NCBI GenBank assembly: GCA_013289695.1
Contig: JABCZK010000010.1
Span: forward strand, 1-64,000
Source: Acidobacteriota bacterium
Lineage (GTDB): Bacteria > Acidobacteriota > Terriglobia > Acidiferrales > UBA7541
Direction: 5' to 3'
Length of the DNA: 64,000 bases
The notes under the pieces are model-generated. The model did no database searches. It worked only from the letters and a program-made list of their open reading frames with translations, and was not told the DNA's origin. Below, piece by piece: positions 53,723 to 54,713 of the stretch. A program made the position numbers and the translations under genes. The first letter of the stretch is position 1; each line of letters begins with the position of its first letter.

Positions 53723-53978
53723 GAATTCTGAGTCGCTCCGAGTCGCTTAGTTGGCTGAGGACGCTCATCGTTGCCGGTCGCTTGTGCGTGATCACACCGG
53801 AGATCAGACCGCCTCCATAGGCGCGCCGCGATCTGACGCTGAGCGCACGAAATCGCAATAATGGAAAAATACTAGAGACACAGGCTGCGGCGCCGGTCTA
53901 CTGTCTAGCGCGGCGGAAAACGCGAAGAACCCGAGAGATCGCGATGCCGTCCACTCAAATGAAAGGAACGCGCCGGTT

Positions 53979-54713
53979 TTGAACGCTCAACTGATTTCGG
54001 TCACCACAAAACTGCTGAAAATCGCCGGCGCATTGGTAGCGCTCTACGCCGTAGTCACCGCGGCCCTCTTTTCCGTCATGCTGCAATCGCCGGACAAATT
54101 CGCCGGCGCCATGAAATACGTCCCGTGGCCGGCGTTCGTGGTGCTGCCTTTCAAGCCGCTTTGGAACGTGGCGCGCAAAGGCCAGCTCGACGTCGGCGAC
54201 CTGGCCCCGGATTTTTCGCTCGACACTCCGGACCACAAGAGCACTTTTCAGTTGTCGTCCATGCGCGGCCAGAAACCGGTGGTGCTGGTTTTTGGCAGCT
54301 ACACGTGACCTCCTTTCCGGCGGGAGGTTCCCGCTCTCAACAAGCTCTACGAGCAATATGAAGATCAGGTCGCGTTTTACCTGGTGTACATCCGCGAGGC
54401 GCATACCAGCGACGTCTGGCAAGATCCCGACAATCTGGACGACCACGTTATTTTCGCGAGCCCGAAAAATATCGCTGAGCGCAGCGAGATGGGACAGTTG
54501 TGCGCGCTGAAGCTGGGGATTCACTTTCCCGCGGTAGTGGATGGCTTTGACAACGCAACGGAACGCAATTACACGGGCTGGCCCGACCGTCTCTACGTGA
54601 TTGATCGCGCAGGGCGCGTGGCGTACAAAGCGCGGCCCGGGCCTTTTGGCTTCAAACTCCAGGGCGTTGCAGAGACGCTGCAAAGGCTGCTGCCAACGGC
54701 CGGGAATCGCTGA
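53979..54713 (+). CDS. Deiodinase-like selenoprotein (Sec110 encoded by UGA), thioredoxin fold
   Basis: Reading TGA 54306-54308 as selenocysteine gives a 244-residue protein that fits the iodothyronine-deiodinase-like family throughout: membrane anchor (LLKIAGALVALYAVVTAALF), GDLAPDFSLDTPDHKSTF, the active site VLVFGSYT-Sec-PPFRREVPAL, FYLVYIREAHTSDVWQDPDN (the deiodinase EAHxSD motif), and PDRLYVIDRAGRVAYKARPG. The frame has no other interruption, and a SECIS-like hairpin begins 11 nt after the UGA. The start is TTG 53979 (AAAGGA upstream), overlapping the stop of a 12-codon frame from ATG 53944. The substrate in bacteria is unknown; a redox or reductive dehalogenation role is inferred. If Sec were not inserted the product would be a dead 109-residue fragment. 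Confidence 0.88.
54319..54335 (+). promoter_or_regulatory. Bacterial SECIS-like hairpin
   Basis: GGCGGG-AGGTT-CCCGCT forms a 6-bp stem (the basal pair G-U) with the loop AGGUU. The Watson-Crick stem starts 11 nt after the in-frame UGA, as in E. coli fdhF, where the SelB-binding hairpin has loop AGGUCU at the same distance. It lies inside the coding sequence (codons for RREVPA). Confidence 0.82.

Follow-up and report, generated by a model that had tools for sequence, protein, structure and literature searches.

The window, the whole 64,000-nucleotide stretch of DNA analysed here, very probably encodes, as judged from sequence comparison, a functional selenoprotein that belongs to the deiodinase-like proteins of prokaryotes (PF00837). 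The gene, its presumed ribosome-binding sequence and its in-frame TGA are as follows.

53979-54713, + strand: deiodinase-like selenoprotein gene (TTG start, Sec110, TGA stop, 244 residues)
53962-53967, + strand: Shine-Dalgarno-like AAAGGA upstream of the TTG, spotted by eye
54306-54308, + strand: in-frame TGA at residue 110, very probably the Sec codon of the active site GSYT-U-PPF

An earlier note on this DNA had described a frame with a single interruption at the catalytic site of a deiodinase. TGA 54306-54308 is indeed the sole internal stop, at codon 110, and aligns with the catalytic Sec of mouse Dio2 and Dio3. The motifs named on its two sides, GSYT-U-PPF, EAHTSD and PDRLYVIDRAGRV, all match exactly in the translation. 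As the note had foreseen, a plain ORF listing splits the gene into two ORFs of 109 residues each. The Pfam profile T4_deiodinase covers residues 68-236, spanning the TGA, with an E-value of 5.1e-30 (105 bits, gathering score 27), and NCBIfam NF038285 (deiodinase_rel) aligned to residues 71-234 with an E-value of 2.7e-55. The curated cut-off of the latter model, which is longer (347 positions), was missed (188.2 vs 250). With the UGA read through, the protein matched the chains in the solved structures of mouse Dio3 and Dio2 at E-values of 6.8e-19 and 8.1e-19, respectively. The profile search found one PF00837 match in the genome of the window. Concerning the start, TTG 53979 is the earliest start codon in the open frame, and AAAGGA ends 11 nt 5' of it on our by-eye reading. 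In the relative L033, an ATG lies 110 codons ahead of its own U. We consider TTG 53979 a plausible start. The starts of the family members were set nearest to 109 codons before U, and the median U position (110) and protein length therefore lend the start no independent support.

We then examined which codon relatives carry at this site. A codon-blind scan, in which only the part after U was aligned, was run on a collection of species genomes, and 481 of the 497 candidate stretches encoded relatives. The codon counts refer to the best 80 of these 481, the closest ones, and do not reach the remaining 401. The codon before PPF was TGA in 79 of the 79 readable relatives; the 80th, L121, begins at a contig edge, leaving the codon unreadable. 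The comparison of U and C at residue 110 proposed in the earlier note thus gave TGA, never TGC or TGT, and none of the 79 closest relatives read has a Cys copy. Among the more distant members, from a sample of the phylum, L038-L042, L045, L046 and L048 have Cys. Thirty-nine positions were identical in at least 79 of 80 rows, 34 of them after U, and the part after U shows up to 81% identity to the nearest named relatives. These relatives bear Acidobacteriota titles, and the host probably belongs to that phylum as well. Seventy-nine of the best 80 relatives stand under Acidobacteriota names, among which we counted Acidoferrales, Bryobacterales and Sulfotelmatobacter; many are soil or peat MAGs by title. 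One relative labelled Nevskia soli (Pseudomonadota), L122, groups with Acidobacteriota rows in the tree, pointing to a transfer or a mislabelled MAG. Another, L116 (Acidobacteria bacterium AB60), has a record without a MAG label and may be a cultured strain.

The genome was searched for the selenocysteine machinery, and selA, selB, selD and tRNA-Sec, the four components that the earlier note had wanted checked, were all found. The proteins scored above cut-off (selB 362 bits, selA 557 bits, selD 369 bits), and the tRNA-Sec exceeded the Rfam cut-off and was confirmed by ARAGORN, with anticodon UCA. A second Rfam tRNA-Sec match over cut-off is a tRNA-Ser according to ARAGORN. Formate dehydrogenase alpha is encoded at two places with one in-frame TGA each (L132, G000:C3:63992-67006, and G000:C9:38111-41272), the second consisting of two stretches of a single frame. 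These genes are likely further selenoproteins of the same genome, so that the Sec system probably serves other genes as well.

A sample of 396 genomes of the phylum contained PF00837 matches in 38 genomes at an E-value of 0.001 and in 30 above the cut-off. Sixteen genomes, including that of the window, combine UPPF with TGA and make up the main set (loci L018 and L023-L037). This set excludes L049 and the distant TGA forms L043 and L044 (both UPPF without the SDxW part), L047 (UPPY) and L050 (UPYC). selA was above cut-off in 15 of the 16 genomes, compared with 235 of the 380 others (one-sided Fisher p 0.006). The exception, G341 (locus L035, 97% complete), has a UPPF gene with TGA and no selA over cut-off. 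Among the genomes of TGA forms outside the main set, selA was present in G285, G090, G069 and G246, and G314, which carries the distant form L047, gave no selA match whatever. The UPPF copy L049 (G285:C62) has a frame that stops 43 codons past the TGA and may be a decaying gene or an assembly error. Listing the 396 genomes also brought up more TGA matches to PF00837 in G218, G234, G314 and a few others.

The earlier note had placed a SECIS hairpin directly after the UGA. A hairpin of the bacterial type is supported, in a different position, with its stem at nt 14-31 counted from the U of UGA.

54319-54336, + strand: bacterial SECIS hairpin, apical loop GGU at 54326-54328

The pairs are 14:31, 15:30, 16:28, 17:27, 18:26, 19:25 and 20:24, with C29 bulged and G21, G22 and U23 forming the loop. 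When the window alone was folded, 54306-54345 (40 nt) behaved like dinucleotide shuffles (z -0.23), and the core 54317-54337 (21 nt) gave a z of -1.96, with 5 of 200 shuffles equally good. As the 40-nt fold of the window is not significant, the SECIS claim rests on the comparison of relatives. In the 77 distinct segments among the 80, codons within the stem are nearly frozen: R115 is CGG in 76, E116 is GAG in 76, V117 is GTT in 71, and P118 is CCC or CCU only. Further along the same genes, CGG accounts for 101 of 484 Arg, GAG for 283 of 532 Glu and GTT for 142 of 743 Val codons. Codons 114 and 119 read CGN and GCN in 70 of the 77 segments, and in 66 of these their third positions pair; 20,000 shuffles gave a mean of 40.3 and a maximum of 54. 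Pairs were counted over 48 of the 80 segments (44 distinct), namely the 47 loci with a full 8 kb upstream and the window. Pairing cells amounted to 97.3%, and 15 changes affected both sides of a pair; the shuffles gave 90.4% and 5.7, respectively. Versions of the stem slid along the sequence scored far lower. Two of the five measures failed to beat the shuffles because most pairs hardly vary: the number of pairs changed on both sides was reached by 128 of 500 shuffles and that of further pair types by 238 of 500. The shuffles ignore kinship, and part of the pairing excess may thus reflect shared descent.

RNAalifold returned the 54319-54336 stem unprompted. The predicted apical loop has GG in 13 of 15 members of the phylum sample, four of them as GGUC and many with other stem sequences; the stem is shifted by 4 nt in three members, and L027 and L036 have other loops. 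In a synonymous-codon control the mean z was -2.1 (95 members) and that of the window -2.4, with weak values for L028 (0.07), L034 (-0.76), L023 (-0.97) and L029 (-1.19). Two other pairings were considered and rejected. A stem adjoining the UGA (ACCUCC/GGAGGU) wins the 61-nt single-sequence fold, but the covariation sits on the pair of nt 15 and nt 30, and pairing nt 15 with nt 29 gave a poorer fit than with nt 30.

Could the TGA be a sequencing error, or the gene a pseudogene with a point mutation? To a gene caller an in-frame TGA looks like a break, as the two listed ORFs illustrate, and the assembly is fragmented (4.5 Mb, 64 contigs, 87% complete). Separate assemblies show the same TGA in all 79 readable relatives, which refutes this for the family and, together with the Pfam match across the codon, makes a chance placement unlikely. 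In addition, 34 of the 39 near-invariant positions lie downstream of U, and both codon and pairing constraint continue past the UGA. We regard error or decay as extremely improbable. That the UGA is decoded as another residue such as Trp, or passed by plain read-through, is very improbable in our estimate. Sec incorporation is itself deduced from comparison, which leaves this reading some room, but TGA is the normal terminator of the window gene and others, 32 of 80 family members in all, Cys occupies the site in distant members, and the Sec machinery is present along with a SECIS-type hairpin. Our preferred reading is thus a UGA decoded as Sec, and we turned to the protein that this would produce.

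53985-54080, + strand: single long hydrophobic helix, residues 3-34, predicted membrane anchor (AlphaFold2 helix, family hydropathy)
54396-54419, + strand: EAHTSDVW, start of the deiodinase-specific loop

An AlphaFold2 model based on 18 aligned rows (pLDDT 92.9) consists of a helix at residues 3-34 followed by a thioredoxin-type domain. A 19-mer with mean hydropathy above 1.6 is found in 73 of the 77 family members whose N-terminus is sufficiently long, and the helix probably anchors the protein in the membrane. In terms of charge-based topology, K/R are commoner before the helix than after it in 44 of the 77. Foldseek ranked Dio2 and Dio3 at the top (E-values of 1.7e-13 and 2.5e-12), followed by ResA-like thiol-disulfide oxidoreductases and AhpE. 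The match to the PDB folds by target length gave TM scores of 0.82 for Dio2 and 0.77 for Dio3. ResA/TlpA thiol-disulfide oxidoreductases have a CxxC active site. Their fold is similar, but the window protein has U-P-P-F instead. With Dio2 (9h48) and Dio3 (4tr3) it has in common not only the closest fold but also UPPF, the Ser and Thr before Sec, the Tyr, EAH, and the D and W of the insertion loop. A membrane segment at the N-terminus, predicted here, is likewise found in Dio2 and Dio3.

The active-site residues were compared over 80 sequences, the window and 79 relatives. Invariant throughout are S107, T109, P111, P112, F113, Y137, E140, A141, H142, W147 and R168. The Dio counterparts of S107, T109, Y137, E140 and H142 form a proposed proton relay according to the accessible part of a previous study (PMC11592359). 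On the other hand, the position of the second relay His, His182 in Dio2 and, assuming equivalence, His174 in DIO1, is residue 162 here. Of the 80 sequences, 75 have Pro at this position, the window among them, 4 have Ala and 1 has Thr. In the available sections of another report, the H174Q form of DIO1 lost its activity wholly (PMC9141512). The proximal Cys, two residues before Sec, is present in DIO1 and DIO3 and replaced by Ala in Dio2; its column here is Tyr in 78 and His in 2 of 80 (Tyr108 in the window). The distal Cys position of Dio corresponds to Phe183. With the relay residues shared and the second His replaced, the chemistry may be alike, and membership among the iodothyronine deiodinases fails at this point.

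The two Dio cysteines are missing, and an invariant cysteine lies elsewhere.

54501-54503, + strand: Cys175, proposed resolving cysteine, invariant in the close clade (80/80)

Given the chosen starts, Cys175 is the sole cysteine in 38 of the 80 proteins. In the part compared, from 40 residues before U onward, other subclades have a Cys at different positions, at 158 in L023-L026 (4/4) and at 108 in L028, L032 and L035 (3/3), the latter being the proximal Cys site of DIO1 and DIO3. In L027 and L047, neither Cys175, Cys158 nor Cys108 was found. For a Cys-for-Sec form of DIO1, a bond between the proximal Cys and the active-site residue has been demonstrated (PMC9141512). A possible cycle can be drawn up from these comparisons. 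SelB and Sec-tRNA would decode UGA 54306-54308 as Sec, guided by the hairpin at 54319-54336, giving a thioredoxin/peroxiredoxin-fold domain behind the predicted membrane helix, with an active site of the animal deiodinase type. The Sec110 selenolate would remove an oxidising group from its substrate, either a phenolic organohalogen giving up its halogen as X+ or a peroxide giving up oxygen, and Thr109, Glu140 and His142 may assist in proton transfer or substrate packing. Cys175 would reduce the oxidised Sec110 by capturing it as a selenenyl-sulfide, which thioredoxin or another thiol could then reduce.

Which of these reactions is the main one is a question of several readings. That the protein is a Se-dependent peroxidase or thiol-disulfide reductase of the peroxiredoxin/ResA kind, sharing fold and loop with the deiodinases, is compatible with Sec, and peroxide or disulfide reduction comes fairly close to an even chance as the main activity. 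AhpC-TSA (E 2.6e-12) and Redoxin (E 1.3e-11) give clear but weaker matches, ResA and AhpE are among the similar folds, and 75 of 80 sequences have Pro in place of the His that DIO1 requires (PMC9141512). A redox function was also suggested for bacterial deiodinase-like proteins in 2005, in the accessible text of that paper (PMC1088965). Against it, the deiodinase-type loop EAHxSDxW is kept, all 80 sequences having its E, A, H and W, and the Dio chains rank at the top in both the sequence and the fold comparison. Reductive dehalogenation, with aromatic halogen compounds as substrates, is a tentative candidate for the main activity, somewhat short of an even chance. That the protein is a true iodothyronine deiodinase would agree with the sharing of UPPF, S107, T109, Y137, E140, H142 and W147 with Dio2 and Dio3. 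Pro162, Tyr108 and Phe183 in place of the second relay His, the proximal Cys and the distal Cys argue otherwise, and thyroid hormones are unexpected in such organisms, as remarked in the text seen of the 2005 paper (PMC1088965). With the second His, on which DIO1 depends, replaced by Pro in 75 of 80 sequences, the window protein is probably not an iodothyronine deiodinase; we consider such an identity highly improbable, and activity on thyroid hormone itself very unlikely. The name given in the earlier note therefore holds as "deiodinase-like", with PF00837 and with Dio as the best match by sequence and fold, and not as "deiodinase" proper. A broader reading, which we find rather unlikely, is that of a phylum-scale clade of Acidobacteriota selenoenzymes which retained Sec and detoxify or use natural soil organohalogens by X+ abstraction, with a recycling Cys relocating between subclades (175 in the main one, 158 in a second and 108 in a third). 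If true, the clade would be a bacterial model for the origins of deiodinases.

Bacterial deiodinase-like Sec proteins were described from the Sargasso Sea in 2005, in a report that gives 4 sequences (PMC1088965). The GOS study of 2008 lists 22 Sec and 21 Cys deiodinase-like sequences in the portion at hand (PMC2398784). The marine prokaryotic family of these two reports, as far as their available text goes, agrees with the window gene in the Pfam family PF00837, the Sec site, the bacterial SECIS and the Cys homologues alongside. The published sets, in the same portions, are marine, whereas the close clade of the window lies in Acidobacteriota, with many soil or peat MAGs. The tables of two reviews, of 2022 and 2026, give the family the motif UxxC, in contrast to UPPF here, with no Cys at +3; this comparison is of tables alone, and that of 2008 is motif-free. 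UxxC may not necessarily be a defining feature of PF00837 selenoproteins. For Acidobacteria, a 2006 survey reports 4 selenoproteins, which fall into 3 families, and the word deiodinase is absent from its accessible text (PMC1794560). Our literature search, which judged mostly titles and abstract openings and left subscription papers mostly outside, found no paper on this Acidobacteriota clade. The kind has thus been known since 2005, and its wide distribution in Acidobacteriota is apparently undescribed. The earlier note named metagenome surveys as the main source of such proteins, which agrees with the literature seen; in the collection of species genomes, however, the family is frequent, 481 of 497 candidate stretches encoding a relative. 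The gene is common in Acidobacteriota, and plain ORF calling cuts it in two at the UGA. Deiodinases have mostly been studied in animals; this bacterial clade shares the Sec motif and most active-site residues without the second His, and it opens a direct test of the role of the fold before thyroid hormone.

In the midpoint-rooted tree, L023-L028, L032 and L035 share a fork with both mouse Dio chains (support 94/87, long branch), a placement from which we conclude nothing about origin. Plasmids gave only three weak matches to the family. A BFVD entry from Terrestrivirus, A0A3G4ZQR0, named "iodothyronine deiodinase", also matches the model; its short length (103 residues) suggests that its annotation may have ended at a UGA.

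As for the surroundings of the gene, hisI (PRA-CH) lies upstream in divergent orientation, and a FecR-domain gene and a CHASE2-cyclase gene lie downstream. When the ORFs near the gene were clustered for 79 loci plus the window, the top 40 clusters contained no partner shared widely enough to suggest a substrate. A single neighbour recurs, a gene for an outer-membrane barrel (carboxypeptidase-regulatory domain, TonB-receptor-like; one was scanned). Of the 73 loci whose upstream sequence spans 1.5 kb or more, 12 have it 5' of U on the same strand, ending 250-1100 nt upstream of U. At 2 loci such a gene starts on the same strand no more than 1.2 kb downstream. The window lacks it in the upstream place, and we base no conclusion on this neighbour. 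The loci with the upstream barrel gene are L053, L057, L064, L070, L075, L076, L086, L096, L101, L110, L119 and L131.
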